64,000 nt of DNA from Stenotrophomonas maltophilia (GTDB lineage Bacteria; Pseudomonadota; Gammaproteobacteria; Xanthomonadales; Xanthomonadaceae): NCBI RefSeq assembly GCF_900186865.1, contig NZ_LT906480.1:4172001-4236000 (forward strand), written 5' to 3'. The notes under the pieces are model-generated. The model was not told the DNA's origin, did no database searches, and worked only from the letters and a program-made list of their open reading frames with translations. The translations under genes and the position numbers were made by a program. Shown here in pieces: positions 16,849 through 37,380 of the stretch (position 1 is the stretch's first letter; each line of letters begins with the position of its first letter).

Positions 16849-16952
16849 GCATCCCCCCGATCCGCAAGGCCGTCTACGCGCACGATAGCGCGCCGGCACG
16901 CCACAGCGGCGTGATCCACTGCGGCAAAACGACACTCCGAGTGCACCGCGAT

Positions 16953-29261: not shown

Positions 29262-30082
29262 CCGGCATGCTGCCGCCAGTTACCGCACTGCTGGCCGAGA
29301 TGGCCAGCCTGGCCGGCTGCGCACGCGCCGAAGGTTATGCGTGCATCACCGCGCGGCGCGAACATGGCGCCAGCTCGGTGGAGATTCCGCAACCGCAGTT
29401 CGCGATCCTACTGGAAGGCCGCAAGCAGGTGCGTACCGCGCACCAGTCGCTGGAGTTCATCCCCGGCGACATCCTGCTGCTGACCCAGCGCTGCCGCATC
29501 GATGTGGTCAACACCCCCGACCCACGCAGTGGCCGCTACCTCAGTGCCATCGTGCCGCTGTGTGCCGAAGTGCTGGCGGCCGCACGCACGCTGTGGAGCG
29601 AGGAGCTTCCCGCGCCAGGCCAGGCGATGGCGCGACTGCCGTTGATCGATCATGGCGCGGTGCTGCGCCAGTGGCGGCAATCGCTGCAGGACGGTCGTTA
29701 CAGCGAAGCGCGGCTGGCCCTGGCCTCGCTGGTACTGACCCTGTGCCGGCAGGGCCACGGCAACCTGCTGCTGCCGCAGGCACCGAGCCTGGGCGAACAG
29801 ATCCGCGACCGCATCGCCGCCGAACCCGCACGCGACTGGCAATCGCGCGATGTGGAAGAACAGTTCGCGCTGAGCGGCGCGACCCTGCGCCGTCGCCTCG
29901 CCGCCGAGGACACCAGCCTGCGCCAGCTGCTCACCGAGGCAAGGCTGGCGCATGGCATGCAGCTGCTCTACACCACCGACCTGCCGTTGAAGACCGTGGC
30001 AGCGCGTGCGGGCTACCGGTCTGCAGCGAGTTTCAGCAAGCGCTTCGCCGAGCAGTACGGACTGGCTCCCACAGACATTTGA
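29258..30082 (+). CDS. AraC-family transcriptional regulator
   Basis: The 274-residue regulator has an N-terminal cupin-like region (PQFAILLEGRKQV, LEFIPGDILLLTQ) and a C-terminal AraC DNA-binding domain with two helix-turn-helices (TLRRRLAAEDTSLRQLLTEARL and KTVAARAGYRSAASFSKRFAEQYG). The start at 29258 overlaps the VIT-family stop. This coupling suggests it controls the membrane protein or its own operon. It resembles the subgroup with an N-terminal domain of about 120 residues (YqhC/RmpA-like). Ligand unknown. Confidence 0.87.
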   Translation: MTGMLPPVTALLAEMASLAGCARAEGYACITARREHGASSVEIPQPQFAILLEGRKQVRTAHQSLEFIPGDILLLTQRCRIDVVNTPDPRSGRYLSAIVPLCAEVLAAARTLWSEELPAPGQAMARLPLIDHGAVLRQWRQSLQDGRYSEARLALASLVLTLCRQGHGNLLLPQAPSLGEQIRDRIAAEPARDWQSRDVEEQFALSGATLRRRLAAEDTSLRQLLTEARLAHGMQLLYTTDLPLKTVAARAGYRSAASFSKRFAEQYGLAPTDI

Positions 30083-30091
30083 GGGGGTTCG

Positions 30092-30697
30092 GCAGGGCTT
30101 GCAGCCCTGCACCTGCTCAATGCAACGGCAACGGCAACGGCCAAAGCCAGAGCCAGAGCGGCATTCCGTGGGATGGCGGGACGGTGTGGGTGGGCAGGAC
30201 ACGCCGTAAACCCCCCTTCCGGGGTCCGGCCCAGCCGCTGGCGGCTGTGCGTTCGGGCGCTTGCGAAGCAGTGCTTCGCAAGCAAAGCGCCCTCACCCAT
30301 GGGGGCTCGATGGCGCCATCCATGGCGCCAACGGTCCTGCCCACCCACACCGCCCCACCTCTGACAGATCTTCGCGACTGTTGGTAGGTGTCGACCTTGG
30401 TCGACACATCTGTCAGATATCGAATGAAACTGTGGGGTCAGATCCGTTTTCCTGCGGAAAACGGATCTGACCCCACGAGCTGACAGATCGCGGAAAACTG
30501 TCGAAGGCGGGGTGGGTCCGGTTGCGGGAGTGTCCGCGGCATGGATGCCGCGGCCAAGCCCCCATGGACGGGTTTACGGCGTCTCCCGCAACCGGACCCA
30601 CCCCGCCATCCCACCCACAGGAAACCAGTTTTTGACGTTGCTTTGGCTGCGGCCGTTGCCTCTGCGGGTGCAGGGCGCAGCCCTGCAGACAACACCC
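30092..30697. repeat. 600-bp nested palindromic element in a 715-nt gene-free region
   Basis: The gap between the AraC and MBL-fold genes has no credible coding frame. It holds a nested set of inverted repeats: an 18-bp perfect pair (30183-30200 with 30334-30351, extended by mismatches), a 12-bp hairpin (30259-30283), CTGACAGAT/ATCTGTCAG arms around a GTGTCGACC hairpin (30361-30416), a 21-bp perfect hairpin (30432-30476), and a 25-bp perfect pair (30506-30530 with 30583-30607) enclosing CCGCGGCAT/ATGCCGCGG. The outer flanks (30092-30142 and about 30640-30697) are themselves imperfect inverted copies. It looks like repeated insertion of palindromic units, or one large composite element. Confidence 0.85.
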
Positions 30698-30797
30698 CTT
30701 CCCTGAGCATTCCGCGCAGCGGTTTGAGCGCCGTGCACACGCCGGCCACGGCACGCTATGCGGCAACGGAACCGCCCGTCATCCACCGAGAACCGCC

Positions 30798-31769
30798 ATG
30801 ACCCTGCGTCACCTGCCGCTGCGCGGCGCCCTGCTGCTGGCACTGTCGTCCCTGCCGCTGTGCGCGCTGGCCGAGGCCACTTCGCCCGCCCCCACCCAGC
30901 AGGTGCCCGGCGTCTATCACCAGCGCGTCGGTGCGCTGCAGGTCACCGCCCTGTTCGACGGCGTGGTCGCGCTGGGTCGGCAGGAAGTGGTGGACGTGCC
31001 GCCGACACTGGTCAGCCGCCTGCTGGAAGGCCGTTACGTGCCGGAAGACAAGAAGGGCCTGCAGACCGCGATCAATGCGTTCCTGATCCGCCAGGGCAAC
31101 CACCTGACCCTGGTCGACACCGGCACCGCGCAGTGCTTCGGCCCCGGCCTGGGCCAGGTGCTGGGCAATCTGCGCGCCTCCGGCGTGGACCCGGCCGAGG
31201 TGGATGAGGTGCTGCTGACCCACGCCCATCCGGACCACCTGTGCGGCGTACTCGACGCGCAGGGCAAGCCGGCCTACCCCAATGCCACGGTGTGGCTGTC
31301 CAAGGCGGATGCCGATTACTGGCTCAACCCGGCCAGCGAGGGCACCGCGCCAAAGGGCGTGCGCTTCGCCTTCCCGCTGGCACGCAATGCGGTCGCGCCA
31401 TACCAGGCCAACGGCCACCTGCGCACCTTCAGCCCCGGCGACGCCCTGCCCGGCGGCGCGGTGGCGATGGACACCCATGGCCATACCCCCGGCCATGTCT
31501 CCTACCGGTTCGACAGCCAGGGCCAGTCACTGCTGGTGTGGGGCGATGTGCTGCACTTCCACGCGGTGCAGTTCGCGCATCCGGAAGCGGCATTCGAGGC
31601 GGATTCGGACCGCAAGGCGGCCATCGCCAGCCGGCGGGCGCTGTTGCAGCAGGCCACCGCCAACGGCTGGTGGGTGGCCGGTGCGCACCTGCCGTTCCCC
31701 GGCCTGGGCCATGTGCGTGGCGAGGGTAAGGCCTATGCGTGGGTGCCGGCGGAGTATTCGCCGTTGTGA
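30798..31769 (+). CDS. exported MBL-fold hydrolase (methyl-parathion-hydrolase-like)
   Basis: The 323-residue protein has a signal peptide (cleavage near residue 25) and a metallo-beta-lactamase fold: THAHPDHLCG with the HxHxDH motif at 142-147, GHTPGH with the third-site His, WGDVLHFHAVQF with the bridging Asp, and a C-terminal AGAHLPFPGLGH. This set matches the periplasmic methyl parathion hydrolase/OPHC2 group, which includes Stenotrophomonas members and acts as lactonase or esterase on natural substrates. It is preceded by the palindromic element and followed by two hairpins. Confidence 0.88.
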   Translation: MTLRHLPLRGALLLALSSLPLCALAEATSPAPTQQVPGVYHQRVGALQVTALFDGVVALGRQEVVDVPPTLVSRLLEGRYVPEDKKGLQTAINAFLIRQGNHLTLVDTGTAQCFGPGLGQVLGNLRASGVDPAEVDEVLLTHAHPDHLCGVLDAQGKPAYPNATVWLSKADADYWLNPASEGTAPKGVRFAFPLARNAVAPYQANGHLRTFSPGDALPGGAVAMDTHGHTPGHVSYRFDSQGQSLLVWGDVLHFHAVQFAHPEAAFEADSDRKAAIASRRALLQQATANGWWVAGAHLPFPGLGHVRGEGKAYAWVPAEYSPL

Positions 31770-31773
31770 GGGT

Positions 31774-31829
31774 GTGCCGACCAAGGTCGGCACCCACCGA
31801 TCGGGTAGCGCCCGGCTGCCAGCCGGGCG
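31774..31829. repeat. two hairpins: GTGCCGACC type and GTAG type
   Basis: GTGCCGACCAAGGTCGGCAC (31774-31793) and a GTAGCGCCCGGCTG hairpin (31804-31829) lie between the convergent MBL-fold and engB genes and probably help end both transcripts. Confidence 0.85.
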
Positions 31830-31841
31830 ACCGGAAATGCC

Positions 31842-32444
31842 TTATTCCAGCCCCAGCCAGCCGCCGATCACGCCGCGGGCTTCGTCCACGCCGGTACGGT
31901 CTTCGCCGGAGAACACCTGCACGCTGACGCTGTCGCCGTAGGCCGATTGCAGTTCCTTGCGCACCTTCTGCAGGGACTGCATCTGCTGGCTGCGGCTGAG
32001 CTTGTCGGCCTTGGTCAGGAGGGCGTGCGCCGGCAGGCCGCGCTGCACGGCGTAGGACAGCATCTGCCGGTCGTAGTCCTTCAGCGGATGGCGGATGTCC
32101 ATCACCACCACCAGCCCCTTCAGGGCTTCGCGGGTGCGGAAATACTTGTCGATGAAGGCCTGCCAGTGCGCCTGCAGGTCCAGCGGCACCTTTGCATAGC
32201 CGTAACCTGGCAGGTCGACCAGATGCGCTTCCGGGGTGACCTGGAAGAACACCAGCTGCTGGGTACGGCCAGGGGTCTTGGAGACACGGGCCAGGGCGTT
32301 CTGGCGGGTCAGCGCGTTGAGCGCACTGGACTTGCCGGCGTTGGAGCGGCCGGCGAAGGCCACTTCGGCCCCTTCGTCGGGCGGCAGTTGCCGCACGTTG
32401 TGGGCCGAAAGGTGGTAACGGGCGCGTTCGATGAGCAATGACAT
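31842..32444 (-). CDS. engB: ribosome biogenesis GTP-binding protein YihA/EngB
   Basis: The 200-residue essential GTPase acts in 50S subunit assembly. The P-loop GRSNAGKSS, switch region KTPGRTQQ, G3 motif DLPGYGYAKV and TKADK specificity motif are all present. Length is normal. It is divergent from the cytochrome c4 gene. The engB, c4, dsbA order is conserved in related bacteria. Confidence 0.96.
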   Translation of the reverse strand: MSLLIERARYHLSAHNVRQLPPDEGAEVAFAGRSNAGKSSALNALTRQNALARVSKTPGRTQQLVFFQVTPEAHLVDLPGYGYAKVPLDLQAHWQAFIDKYFRTREALKGLVVVMDIRHPLKDYDRQMLSYAVQRGLPAHALLTKADKLSRSQQMQSLQKVRKELQSAYGDSVSVQVFSGEDRTGVDEARGVIGGWLGLE

Positions 32445-32600
32445 GTGCCTAGGATCGCATGTTGCGGCGCCGCGCGCCCGTGCCGGCGGCCCCTGCGGGC
32501 ATTTTGCTGCACTGCTGCGTTGACCGTGCGCGGAAACGGCGTTGATAATCCGGGCGATGCCGGCGGCCACCGCCCGGCCCGGTCCATACGGAGCTTCAGC

Positions 32601-33400
32601 ATGCGCCACGCTCGCGTTCTTGCCGTATCCGCCCTTGCCACTGCTGTAGTCGTTGCCGCTGCTGCGTTCGCGCAGACCACGTTGACCCCGCTGCCCGACA
32701 ACGGGCCGATCAACACCGCCTCGCTGGAGGTGGATTTCAGCAAGACCCACTGGGGCGATGCCAAGGCCGGCCAGACCAAGGCCTCGGCCTGCGCGGCCTG
32801 CCATGGCGCCGACGGCAATTCCACGGTGGAGATGTACCCGTCCATCGCCGGCCAGAGCGAACGCTACGTCGCCCAGCAGATGGCCCTGATCGCCAATGGG
32901 CAGCGCAGCTCCGGTGCGGCGGTGGCGATGGTGCCGTTCGTGCAGAATCTCACCCCGCAGGACATGCGCGACATCGGCGCGTTCTTCGCCACGCAGAAGG
33001 CCACCGCCGGCATCGCCGATGACACGGCAGTCACCGACGGCCCGTACAAGGGCATGAAGTTCTACGAGATCGGCCAGCAGCTGTACCGTGGCGGCGACGC
33101 CAAGCGCGGCCTGCCGGCCTGCATGGCGTGCCACGGCCCCAGCGGTGCCGGTAATCCGGGTCCGGCCTATCCGCACATCGGTGGTCAGCACGCCAGCTAT
33201 GTCGCGCGCCGCCTGCAGGAATACCAGGTCGGCCAGACCAACGAGACCGACAAGGCCCACTTCCAGATCATGGCGACAGTCGCGCAGAAGCTGAGCGAGC
33301 AGGAGGGGCAGGCGCTGTCGAGCTACCTGCAGGGCCTGCACAACAAGGCCGACGATGTGGCCACTGCCCCCCGTCGGCGCAACCGGCTGCCGCCCCCTGA
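32601..33400 (+). CDS. cytochrome c4, with a probable 1-nt deletion at the 3' end
   Basis: The diheme periplasmic cytochrome has a signal peptide (to about residue 24) and two heme sites CAACH and CMACH, each with a C-terminal Met ligand candidate. It passes electrons to terminal oxidases. Codons up to about 33366 are normal; then a run of six C at 33367-33372 precedes an Arg/His-rich stretch that continues in frame through the terminator into dsbA with no stop. Adding one C restores an Ala/Pro-rich tail (PSAQPAAAP) and a TGA at 33398, the end used here. The break is either a real mutation in the homopolymer or a sequencing error. Confidence 0.85.
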
Positions 33401-33457
33401 CCACCACTGGTCGGCCCGGGCCGCCACCACGGCCCGCGCCTGCGGTATGTTTCCTTC

Positions 33458-33488
33458 ACGCCGGCGACCGCGCCGGCGTTGCTTTTTT
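33458..33488 (+). terminator. intrinsic terminator between c4 and dsbA genes
   Basis: ACGCCGGCG pairs with CGCCGGCGT around a 4-nt loop and is followed within 3 nt by six T. It stands between the natural end of the cytochrome gene and the dsbA start, which supports these being separate transcription units. Confidence 0.85.
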
Positions 33489-33506
33489 CAACGGAGATGC
33501 GTGTCG

Positions 33507-34157
33507 ATGAGGTTGATTTCCCGCCTGCTGTTGTCCGTGCTGGTGCTGCTGCCGCTGGCAGCCTGCGCCGCTACCCCCGCCAATGCCCCGCTGGTCGAGG
33601 GCAAAGACTACGAGCGCATCGCCCAGCCGGGCCCGTTCCAGCCGCTGGCCGGCAAGATCGAGGTGGTCGAGGTCTTCGGCTACACCTGCCCGCATTGCGC
33701 CCACTTCGAACCGCAGCTGGAAGCCTGGGCGGCCAAGCTGCCGGCCGACGTGCGCTTCACCCCGGTCCCGGCTGCCTTCGGTGGCGCCTGGGATGCCTGG
33801 GCACTGGCCTACTACGCCGCCGACGAGGTCGGCGTGGCCAAGCGCAGCCACGCTGCCGTGTTCAAGGCCCTGCACGAGCAGGGATCGCTGCCGATGCAGA
33901 ACGTCTCGGCCGATGAGCTCGCCACCTTCTACAAGGCGTATGGCGTGACCCCGGACCGTTACCTGCAGGCCCTGCGCGGCGACGCCGTACAGAAGAAGGT
34001 CGATGCCGCGCGCGCGTTCGCCCAGCGCACCAGGATCCCGGGGACCCCGGCGCTGATCATCAACGGCCAGTACCTGGTGCGTGGCAACAGCTTCGACGAC
34101 CAGCTGCGCATCGCCTCGGCGCTGATCGCCCAGGCCCGCGCTGCCCGCGGCCGCTGA
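33507..34157 (+). CDS. dsbA: thiol:disulfide interchange lipoprotein DsbA (CPHC)
   Basis: The 216-residue protein has a lipoprotein signal with lipobox LAAC (Cys20) and a DsbA fold with active site CPHC at 61-64 and the cis-Pro loop RIPGTPALI. It forms disulfide bonds in exported proteins, tethered to a membrane. The ATG at 33507 has GGAG about 10 nt upstream. The frame is open upstream into the cytochrome gene because of the frameshift there. A second DsbA follows 106 nt downstream. Confidence 0.93.
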   Translation: MRLISRLLLSVLVLLPLAACAATPANAPLVEGKDYERIAQPGPFQPLAGKIEVVEVFGYTCPHCAHFEPQLEAWAAKLPADVRFTPVPAAFGGAWDAWALAYYAADEVGVAKRSHAAVFKALHEQGSLPMQNVSADELATFYKAYGVTPDRYLQALRGDAVQKKVDAARAFAQRTRIPGTPALIINGQYLVRGNSFDDQLRIASALIAQARAARGR

Positions 34158-34263
34158 ACCAACACCCACCACCGACACGGCGCTGTCGCCGCCGCATGTC
34201 ATCATTTCCCTCTGGCCGGCGCCTGGCGCCGGCCCCACCATTCCAGATGCTGGAGACGTTTCC

Positions 34264-35100
34264 ATGAAGATCCGTTACGCCCTCGCCCTCGCAGCGCTGC
34301 TGCCGATCCTGGCTGCCTGCAAGGCTGATGATGGCAGCACCAACACCACCGCGGCCCCGGCCGAACCGGCTGCAGCCCCGGCAGCCACCACCGAACCGAC
34401 TGCTGCGCCGGCGGCGGGCAGCGAAGGCGCCGCGCCGGCTGCCGCTGAAGGCGAGAAGGCCCCGGCCGAAGCGGCTCCGGCCACCGCACCGGCCCCGACC
34501 ACCGCCGCACTGACCGGCCCGGCCCCGGTGGAAGGTGCCGACTACCAGGTGATCCCGAACGGCCAGCCGTTCCAGCCGGCCACCGGCAAGATCGAAGTGA
34601 CCGAGATCTTCGGCTACGTCTGCCCGGCCTGCGCCGCATTCCAGCCGCTGGTCGGCCCGTGGAAGGCCGGCCTGCCGGGCGACGTGAACTTCGTCTACGT
34701 GCCGGCCATGTTCGGCGGCACCTGGGATGACTACGCCCGTGCCTTCTACGCCGCGCAGACCCTGGGCGTGCAGGAGAAGACCCACGAAGCGCTGTACGCC
34801 GCCATCCACTCGCAGAAGACCCTGAAGGGCGAGCGCGGCCGTGATTCGGTGGAAGACATCGCCAAGTTCTACGGTGCCTACGGCGTGGATCCGAAGCAGT
34901 TCGCCGCCACCATGGGCAGCTTCGCAGTGAATGCCAAGACCAACTCGGCCAAGCAGTTCGCGCAGCGCAGCCAGATCAGCGGCACCCCGTCGATCATCGT
35001 CAACGGCAAGTACCTGGTGAAGGGCAAGAGCTTCCCGGACATGCTGCGGATCGCCGACCACCTGATCGCCCGCGAACGCGGTGCGGCCCAGGCTCACTGA
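34264..35100 (+). CDS. second DsbA-family lipoprotein with an Ala/Pro-rich linker (CPAC)
   Basis: The 278-residue paralogue has lipobox LAAC (Cys19), then a low-complexity Ala/Pro/Glu linker from about residue 20 to 88, and a DsbA domain with active site CPAC at 120-123 and cis-Pro motif ISGTPSIIV. The CPAC dipeptide usually gives a different redox potential from CPHC, so the two DsbAs may have different substrates. The linker could let the domain reach across the periplasm. It is in tandem with the first dsbA. Confidence 0.9.
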   Translation: MKIRYALALAALLPILAACKADDGSTNTTAAPAEPAAAPAATTEPTAAPAAGSEGAAPAAAEGEKAPAEAAPATAPAPTTAALTGPAPVEGADYQVIPNGQPFQPATGKIEVTEIFGYVCPACAAFQPLVGPWKAGLPGDVNFVYVPAMFGGTWDDYARAFYAAQTLGVQEKTHEALYAAIHSQKTLKGERGRDSVEDIAKFYGAYGVDPKQFAATMGSFAVNAKTNSAKQFAQRSQISGTPSIIVNGKYLVKGKSFPDMLRIADHLIARERGAAQAH

Positions 35101-35123
35101 TCCAAGAGAAGCGTTTCCCGGCC

Positions 35124-35891
35124 GTGAATTCCCCCCGTACACGGACCCTGCGCTTGCTGACGGCCAACATCCAGGCCGGCTCAAGTACCCGCCGCTACAG
35201 CGACTATGTGACCCGCAGCTGGTCACATGCGCTGCCGGCGGGTCGCAAGCGCAGCAGTCTTGACGCGATCGCCACCCTGGCGCGCGACCATGACATCGTC
35301 GGCCTGCAGGAGGCCGACCCGGGCAGCCTGCGCTCGGGCTTCACCAACCAGACCCACTATTTGGCCCAGCGCGCCGGATTCAATTACTGGAGCCACCAGC
35401 CGAACCGGCGCATGGGTGGGGTCGCCTCCAGCGCCAACGGCCTGTTGAGCAAACTGGAACCGGTTGAAGTGCAGGATCACGCCCTGCCCGGCCGCATCGG
35501 CGGGCGCGGCGTGCTGCTGGCCAAGTTCGGCGATGGCGCCGATGGCCTGGCGGTGGCGGTGGCCCATCTGTCGCTGGGCGCGGGATCGCGGATGTCGCAG
35601 CTGGGCTTCATCGCCGAGCTGTTGTCCGACCACCCCAACGCGGTGCTGATGGGCGACTTCAACTGCCTGGCCGAGCGCCCGGAAATGCAGGTGCTGTACC
35701 AGAAGACCCGGCTGCAGCCCCCGGGCTGCATCGTGCCGACCTTCCCCAGCTGGCGCCCGGACCGCGCCATCGACCACATCCTGGTCAGCAGCGGCCTGCA
35801 GACCCGCACCGTGGAAGCCGTACCGGCCGCGTTCTCCGATCACCTCGCCCTGGCGATGCAGATCGACGTCCCGGCCGACGCCCTGCGCTGA
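35124..35891 (+). CDS. endonuclease/exonuclease/phosphatase family protein
   Basis: The 255-residue cytosolic protein has the EEP fold: RLLTANIQAGS at the first metal strand, IVGLQEADPGS with the metal Glu, AVAHLSLG, MGDFNCLAE with the Asp and Asn, and DHILVSSGL with SDHLALAMQ for the catalytic His. GTG is the start at 35124, just after the dsbA stop. This gene commonly follows dsbA in gammaproteobacteria. It may be a DNase or phosphodiesterase; substrate unknown. Confidence 0.88.
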   Translation: MNSPRTRTLRLLTANIQAGSSTRRYSDYVTRSWSHALPAGRKRSSLDAIATLARDHDIVGLQEADPGSLRSGFTNQTHYLAQRAGFNYWSHQPNRRMGGVASSANGLLSKLEPVEVQDHALPGRIGGRGVLLAKFGDGADGLAVAVAHLSLGAGSRMSQLGFIAELLSDHPNAVLMGDFNCLAERPEMQVLYQKTRLQPPGCIVPTFPSWRPDRAIDHILVSSGLQTRTVEAVPAAFSDHLALAMQIDVPADALR

Positions 35892-35904
35892 CCATTCCTG
35901 GTGG

Positions 35905-35954
35905 GTGCCAACCTTGATTGGCACGCTCTCCGCCGGGCATCGCCCGGCGCTACC
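35905..35954. repeat. GTGCCAACC hairpin plus inverted GTAG hairpin
   Basis: GTGCCAACCTTGATTGGCAC (35905-35924) is followed by a GTAG-type hairpin in inverted orientation (35933-35954). The CTAC of the latter supplies the TAG stop (35950-35952) of the RhtA-like gene. Confidence 0.85.
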
Positions 35955-36825
35955 CGGTCTGCGCCACCGGCACCTTCAACCGCCGCGCGGTCATCGTGCT
36001 ACCCACCGAGGCCAGCACCGTGCAGCCGATCGCCAGCCACTGCAGCCCGTGCAGGTGCTCGTGCAGCAACAGCATCGCCCACAGCGCGGCCACCGCCGGC
36101 TCCATGCTGATCAGGATGCCAAAGGTCTCCTTCGGCAGGCGCTTGAGCGCCATCATTTCCAGCGACATCGGGATCGCGCTGGACACCAGTGCCACCAGCA
36201 GGCCCGCCGCCAGGATCTTCGGGTCGAGCAGCGCGGCACCGGCATGCACCACGCCCACCGGTACCACCACCAGAGACGCCGCCAGCAGCCCCAGCGAGAC
36301 CGAGTGCCCGGCATGCAGATGACCGGCACGCTTGCCGAACACGATGTACAGGCCCCAGCAGGCCGCAGCGCCCATCGCGTACAGCATACCGGCCGGGTCC
36401 AGCGCGGGGCCACCGCCGATCGGCAGCAGCAACAGCAGCCCCACCGCCGCGCAGCCCACCCAGAGGAAATCGATCGGGCGTCGTGATGACAGCATCGCCA
36501 CCGTCAGCGGCCCGGTGAACTCGATGGCCACCGCGATGCCGAAGGGAATCGTGCGCAGGGCCATGTAGAACAGCAGGTTCATCAGCCCCAGGGTGAGCCC
36601 GTAGCGCAGGATGGTGATTGCATCCACGCGGCTGGTCTTCCAGCGCCATGGCCGCCAGAACAGCAGCAGCAACAGCGCTGAAAAGCCCACGCGCAGCGCG
36701 CTGGTGCCCTGCGCACCGATCAGCGGGAACAGGTGTTTTGCGTAGGAAGTGCCGATGGCCAGCGAGGTGACCGAGCCGAGCACCGCCAGCGCCGGCAACA
36801 TCGGCGCAAGTCGTGAGGTCTGCAT
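35950..36825 (-). CDS. EamA/RhtA-family amino-acid or metabolite exporter
   Basis: The 291-residue inner-membrane protein has ten predicted helices in two EamA repeats and resembles RhtA, the threonine/homoserine exporter (FPLIGAQGTSALRVGFSALLLLLFWRPW; GILISMEPAVAALWAMLLLHE is a strong signature). The ATG at 36825 is chosen; one TTG lies two codons upstream. It is divergent from an Lrp-type regulator 72 nt away, which likely controls it. Its stop is repeat-derived. Confidence 0.9.
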   Translation of the reverse strand: MQTSRLAPMLPALAVLGSVTSLAIGTSYAKHLFPLIGAQGTSALRVGFSALLLLLFWRPWRWKTSRVDAITILRYGLTLGLMNLLFYMALRTIPFGIAVAIEFTGPLTVAMLSSRRPIDFLWVGCAAVGLLLLLPIGGGPALDPAGMLYAMGAAACWGLYIVFGKRAGHLHAGHSVSLGLLAASLVVVPVGVVHAGAALLDPKILAAGLLVALVSSAIPMSLEMMALKRLPKETFGILISMEPAVAALWAMLLLHEHLHGLQWLAIGCTVLASVGSTMTARRLKVPVAQTG

Positions 36826-36897
36826 GCGCAAAGTCTATTGCGTCGGCGCCGAGCACTTGGCTCAATTGACAGCCTGTTCGTGCAACTTCTGCTCGCC

Positions 36898-37380
36898 ATG
36901 GCCATCGCTCCCGTGCTCGACAGTTTCGACCGCGCCATCCTCGACCTCCTGCAGCGGGACAACACCCTGCCGCAGCGCGAAATCGCCGAGTCCGTGCACC
37001 TGTCCACCCCGGCCGTGCAACGGCGCATCAAGCGCCTGCAGGACAGTGGCGTGATCGCGGCCAACGTGGCGGTGGTCGCCGCAGCCAAGATCGGTCGGCC
37101 GCTGACCATCATCGTCGAGGTGCGCGTGGTCAGCGAGCAGCGCGACCGCGTGGCGCCGTTCAGGCGCCGCGTGCAGGACGACCCTGCGGTGCAGCAGTGC
37201 TACTCCATCACCGGCGATGGCGATTTCCTGCTGCTGCTTTCGGCGGCGTCGATGGAAGAGTACGAGGCCATCACCGAGCGGTTGTTCGGCGGCGATGACA
37301 ACATCGAGCGCTTCCGCACCTCGGTGGCGCTGGGCACGTTGAAGCGGAGTTTCGAGGTCCCGCTGACACCGGTTCTGTAG
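36898..37380 (+). CDS. Lrp/AsnC-family transcriptional regulator
   Basis: The 160-residue regulator has an N-terminal helix-turn-helix (LDLLQRDNTLPQREIAESVHLSTPAVQRRIKRL) and a C-terminal RAM domain ending in FGGDDNIERFRTSV. It is divergent from the RhtA-like exporter, a common pairing. Its TAG stop (37378-37380) lies in a degenerate GTAG repeat, within which the next gene's ATG also falls. Ligand is likely an amino acid. Confidence 0.9.
   Translation: MAIAPVLDSFDRAILDLLQRDNTLPQREIAESVHLSTPAVQRRIKRLQDSGVIAANVAVVAAAKIGRPLTIIVEVRVVSEQRDRVAPFRRRVQDDPAVQQCYSITGDGDFLLLLSAASMEEYEAITERLFGGDDNIERFRTSVALGTLKRSFEVPLTPVL

Follow-up and report, generated by a model that had tools for sequence, protein, structure and literature searches.

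The closest described surroundings of the locus treated here are the dsb genes of Stenotrophomonas maltophilia, and a study of dsbA and dsbL deletions places these genes in a cluster whose exact regulation it calls unknown (PMC13099141). A cc4 is named, as annotated, in the oxidase-positive strain SM7059, with no mention of a frameshift (PMC6486260). For sequence records in general, two further papers report that the residual errors of long-read-only bacterial assemblies most commonly concern homopolymer length (PMC8812927), and that gene-fragmenting errors are still detectable in a hybrid assembly (PMC12007338). No c4-DsbA fusion was recognised in the literature searched by titles and abstract openings.

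The underlying biology is that of an ordinary Stenotrophomonas c4-dsbA neighbourhood. The window, by which we mean the whole stretch of 64,000 nucleotides of S. maltophilia DNA analysed here, shares with Stenotrophomonas and its relatives the gene order c4, dsbA, and a simple scan places a hairpin with a T-rich tail between the two genes in 85 of 89 genus loci. It differs from this ordinary neighbourhood in that its c4 has no stop codon of its own, owing to a difference of one base in a run of C. Like the window, which has a second DsbA-family gene of 278 aa on the plus strand at 34264–35100 (ORF listing and domain search), many genomes hold a stretch of about 66–68% similarity roughly 1.4 kb further on. 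The second gene is perhaps the dsbL of the published S. maltophilia clusters, a name that is given from the description in that study and not from sequence (PMC13099141).

The recorded open frame

Starting from the ATG at 32601 on the plus strand, the first stop in frame is the TGA at 34155–34157, and the frame 32601–34157 thus covers 518 codons in which a terminator-like hairpin stands between two complete parts, a diheme cytochrome c4 and a DsbA lipoprotein, as the original prediction had it; direct reading, the ORF listing and Pfam all bear this out. The ORF tool gives GTG 32445 as an alternative start, and the ATG at 32601 leads to a signal-peptide-like beginning. The conserved part of cytochrome c4 and the start of its tail occupy 32601–33372 (plus strand), with the two CXXCH haem motifs CAACH (C64-H68, residues 64–68) and CMACH (C174-H178, residues 174–178), and with cytochrome c domains at residues 61–128 (PF13442) and 158–246 (PF00034) of the 518-residue translation. 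Sequence matches in the PDB for this part are the cytochrome c4 chains 6q2u, 1etp and 8uf3, the best with 1.6e-46. The chain of a cytochrome c4 is expected to end after the second domain, and here the recorded frame enters DsbA instead.

The tail of c4 reaches a run of C at 33367–33372 (plus strand), which does consist of six bases, and a TGA in another frame lies at 33398–33400, both as predicted from the window. The recorded frame continues through an Arg/Pro-rich linker of 134 bases (33373–33506, plus strand), and the matching stretch in the relatives holds the end of the c4 tail, the c4 stop and the intergenic stretch. The terminator-like hairpin with its T run lies within the linker at 33458–33489 (plus strand), with nine pairs at 33458–33479. 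The gene dsbA follows at 33507–34157 on the same strand, with its own ATG at 33507, a Shine-Dalgarno-like GGAG at 33493–33496, a lipoprotein-like signal containing LAAC, presumably a lipobox, and a CXXC active site (C363-P-H-C366). The signal begins at ATG 33507, yet it is internal within the recorded fused frame. Pfam finds a DSBA domain at residues 355–500 (PF01323, 5.1e-14) and the PDB sequence matches of this part are 2rem (1.1e-71), 3h93 and 4zl7; the NCBIfam DsbA models match below cut-off only, with 57.7 vs 290 bits.

An open frame of 521 aa is also present on the minus strand at 31842–33407, running antisense through c4 into a GTPase gene that we take to be EngB/YsxC-like. The GTPase portion alone is probably the coding part of this frame.

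Comparison with related loci

The c4-dsbA locus was matched in 91 of 91 genomes of the genus, and the c4 frame was followed in 89 loci from these genomes, the window's own included and G054 and G067 left out. In all of the 88 other loci the c4 stop precedes dsbA, and the two genes are fused only in the window's own. The same holds for 78/78 named loci from Stenotrophomonas, Xanthomonas, Pseudoxanthomonas, Lysobacter and others, a set that overlaps with that of the genus, as many of its loci are from the same genomes. These comparisons show that, of all loci examined, this record alone has the fused state. The locus L125 (JAHREJ010000014.1), titled Bacillus subtilis strain SK7B5, holds a Stenotrophomonas-like c4-dsbA pair, and the record is mislabelled or contaminated.

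The closest relative, G043, is 99% identical over 33100–34157, and around the break it has the same bases with a C run that is one longer, its c4 terminating before the hairpin. Three of the 89 genus loci have at least six C in a row in the c4 tail, namely the window's own (six), G043 (seven) and the distant L088 (six), and none of the 78 named loci does. In L088 the c4 ends normally in spite of its six C and the genes are unfused. The prediction that a homopolymer frameshift at the C run is where the frame breaks is strongly supported by this comparison, as the nearest relative is identical over 60 bases except for the one extra base of the run, and the suggested alignment with other Stenotrophomonas c4 loci has come out in its favour. 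The prediction had allowed for a frameshift or a real fusion; the frameshift is strongly supported, with c4 ending before dsbA in 88/88 other genus loci, and the fusion finds no support in them, with none fused among these 88 or among the 78 named loci.

Proteins were searched with the 518-residue frame as well, where 7997 candidates sharing most words were scored, 626 passed and the best 120 of these 626 were listed. Among these best 120, only P0001, a protein of 513 aa from ENA, spans both the c4 and the DsbA halves, and neither the window's own 518-residue protein nor any near-identical fused protein is found among them. P0001 matches c4 closely to residue 244 and then diverges. The protein alignment suggests that its frame changes ahead of the linker and again within it, in the DsbA signal, and in two stretches of DsbA itself. 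Like the window it has one recorded frame across c4 and DsbA, and unlike the window it has the apparent extra frame changes in linker, signal and DsbA. Judged from its alignment, P0001 seems to derive from an assembly of the c4-dsbA locus that is rich in errors, and fusions of the two genes by error apparently do occur. As the only other spanning protein listed has several frame changes, support for a real fusion is limited to the record itself. The protein collection already contains an apparent error-made chimera of the locus, and caution is called for in GC-rich genomes, where one recorded base can yield a convincing two-domain redox fusion.

The open linker has to be seen against what is expected by chance. 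In a first-order Markov model of the 134 bases a given frame is free of stops in 72% of trials, and in 49% when the composition of 30000–37000 is used. Apart from the window's own there are 88 genus loci; traced backwards from dsbA, its frame stays open beyond the conserved end of c4 in 44 of them and in 34 of the 40 relatives whose c4 is at least 92% identical. Among the six close relatives that remain, five (L024, L028, L031, L043 and L044) have c4 and dsbA in one frame, parted by the c4 stop codon alone, and in the sixth, L027, the open part of the dsbA frame starts one base after the conserved c4 end. This same-frame arrangement with the c4 stop between is found in 36/88 relatives overall, again without the window's own locus, and in 5/40 of the close ones. 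As the frame is open in many relatives and is stop-free in 72% of the Markov trials, the readable linker is no evidence of selection. The open frame itself is not beyond chance; what is unusual is the difference of this record from the 88 other loci of the genus.

The hairpin upstream of dsbA

Over 37 of 62 distinct upstream stretches, 97.5% of the cells compared are paired as in the nine-pair stem, and structures slid along the sequence reach a pairing of at most 63.1%. Cells of the stem changed on both sides number 15, against 7.0 in shuffles of which 0/500 were as high, in a test where related sequences can exceed the shuffles also without a structure. Neither the stem pairs with two-sided changes (2) nor the further pair types (5) exceed in number what the shuffles give, 324/500 being as high, and the hairpin region does not stand out from its shuffles when folded as a single sequence (z -0.26). 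The comparison across genomes supports the stem and points to a conserved hairpin in which some of the changes are compensatory. The window's stem ends 27 bases 5' of the dsbA start, and transcripts from any promoter further upstream must therefore cross the hairpin. The hairpin at 33458–33489 is a candidate attenuator setting the ratio of c4 to dsbA, and its conserved position directly 5' of dsbA may merit study.

Origin of the short C run

We are highly confident that the short C run of the record arose in one of two ways, by an error of base calling or consensus or by a recent slip private to the strain, and that it joins an ordinary c4-dsbA pair. The run at 33367–33372, one base shorter than in the closest relative, shifts c4 into the dsbA frame at a point beyond the complete diheme domain, where the Ala/Pro tail is variable. 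As the stretch is GC-rich with few stops, the shifted frame reaches the stop of dsbA. In either case the start and ribosome-binding site of dsbA itself are retained, as are both haem motifs of c4.

A genuine and selected cytochrome c4-DsbA fusion protein could be read from two domains that are complete within one frame, but such a fusion is present in 0/88 other genus loci and 0/78 named loci, and both the ribosome-binding site of dsbA and a terminator-like hairpin lie in the linker, so that we regard this reading as scarcely credible. It is highly improbable, if a little less so, that the run is a phase-variable switch or a site of programmed frameshifting, where run length or slippage of the polymerase or the ribosome would set the readthrough of c4 into dsbA, and where translation across the hairpin would block folding of the terminator and raise dsbA expression. 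The closest relative does have the run, one base longer, the conserved hairpin is directly 5' of the dsbA ribosome-binding site and the target frame is open in 34/40 close relatives. At least six C in the c4 tail are however found in just 3/89 genus and 0/78 named loci, and the frame relation between c4 and dsbA is not kept, being the same frame in 36/88 relatives and in 5/40 close ones. Programmed frameshifting was rejected, as the slippery run is not conserved and the six C in the tail of L088 leave the genes unfused. We also consider it very unlikely that a real six-C allele alters regulation in such a way that translation over the hairpin prevents termination and couples dsbA to c4 expression, with some membrane-anchored c4-DsbA being made; if it did, the run length would be a slow switch of disulfide-bond capacity.

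C runs slip during replication, and a real and recent slip of one base in the strain, giving c4 an Arg-rich tail that is foreign to it and leads on into DsbA, is a serious possibility to which we give somewhat less than an even chance. The DsbA signal, being internal, would then either serve as a stop-transfer sequence or be cleaved, and the start codon of dsbA would continue to yield native DsbA. This reading is favoured by the normal look of the frame breaks and seven-C runs of the record, and by the sparing of both haem motifs, because of which counter-selection could be mild. The slip is shared by no examined relative, however, no near-identical fused protein is found among the best 120 of 626 matches, and about 260 additional residues are likely to be a burden for a periplasmic cytochrome. 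If the short run is real, the haem motifs and the DsbA active site should survive, native DsbA should still form since dsbA has its own start and ribosome-binding site, and a ribosome crossing the hairpin could lower termination and raise dsbA transcription. On balance we lean, as a matter of judgement, slightly towards a base-calling or consensus error, which we take to be more likely than a recent slip in the strain. The one-base difference that breaks the frame in comparison with the relatives resembles the homopolymer errors described for long-read assemblies (PMC12007338, PMC8812927), and differs from the gene-fragmenting errors in these papers in that two genes are joined and none is cut short, with no general excess of breaks.

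The quality of the record was checked over about 200 kb of the chromosome against five relatives with three reference gene sets. Broken genes in the window's own genome are 1/117, 2/122 and 3/110 in the three sets (116, 120 and 107 intact) and one to four in each of the other genomes compared, and neither a general excess of frame breaks nor a generally poor assembly was found over these 200 kb and five relatives. An initial gene comparison that flagged 33/130 and 25/129 genes was read as mostly noise from start choice and was replaced. Exact C runs of 6, 7 and 8 number 608, 85 and 15 in the own genome, which gives a 7-to-6 ratio of 85/608 = 0.14, against 0.12–0.19 in 11 other genomes, and an 8-to-7 ratio of 15/85 = 0.18, the lowest of 12, the others being 0.18–0.39. 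A systematic shortening of C runs in this record was not shown: the 7-to-6 ratio is ordinary, even if none of the 11 other genomes has a lower 8-to-7 ratio. With no systematic homopolymer fault shown there is room for a true mutation. At this single site, the numbers of frame breaks and C runs count neither against the record nor in its favour.

A strict scan for record-specific indels gave six coding-labelled events in the own genome and 3, 6, 2, 2 and 2 in the five relatives; the break site, with flanks that differ in four of the five relatives, is not among these events. Two of the own six events are single-base insertions against 5/5 relatives at 16853 and 19409, just 5' of genes that we assume to be diguanylate-cyclase-like and alcohol-dehydrogenase-like, respectively. 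Another of the six lies outside the window, near 4126102 (G000:C1, about 45.9 kb before its start; L100), where one base breaks the frame of a presumably short-chain dehydrogenase-like gene of about 286 aa in comparison with 5/5 relatives compared.
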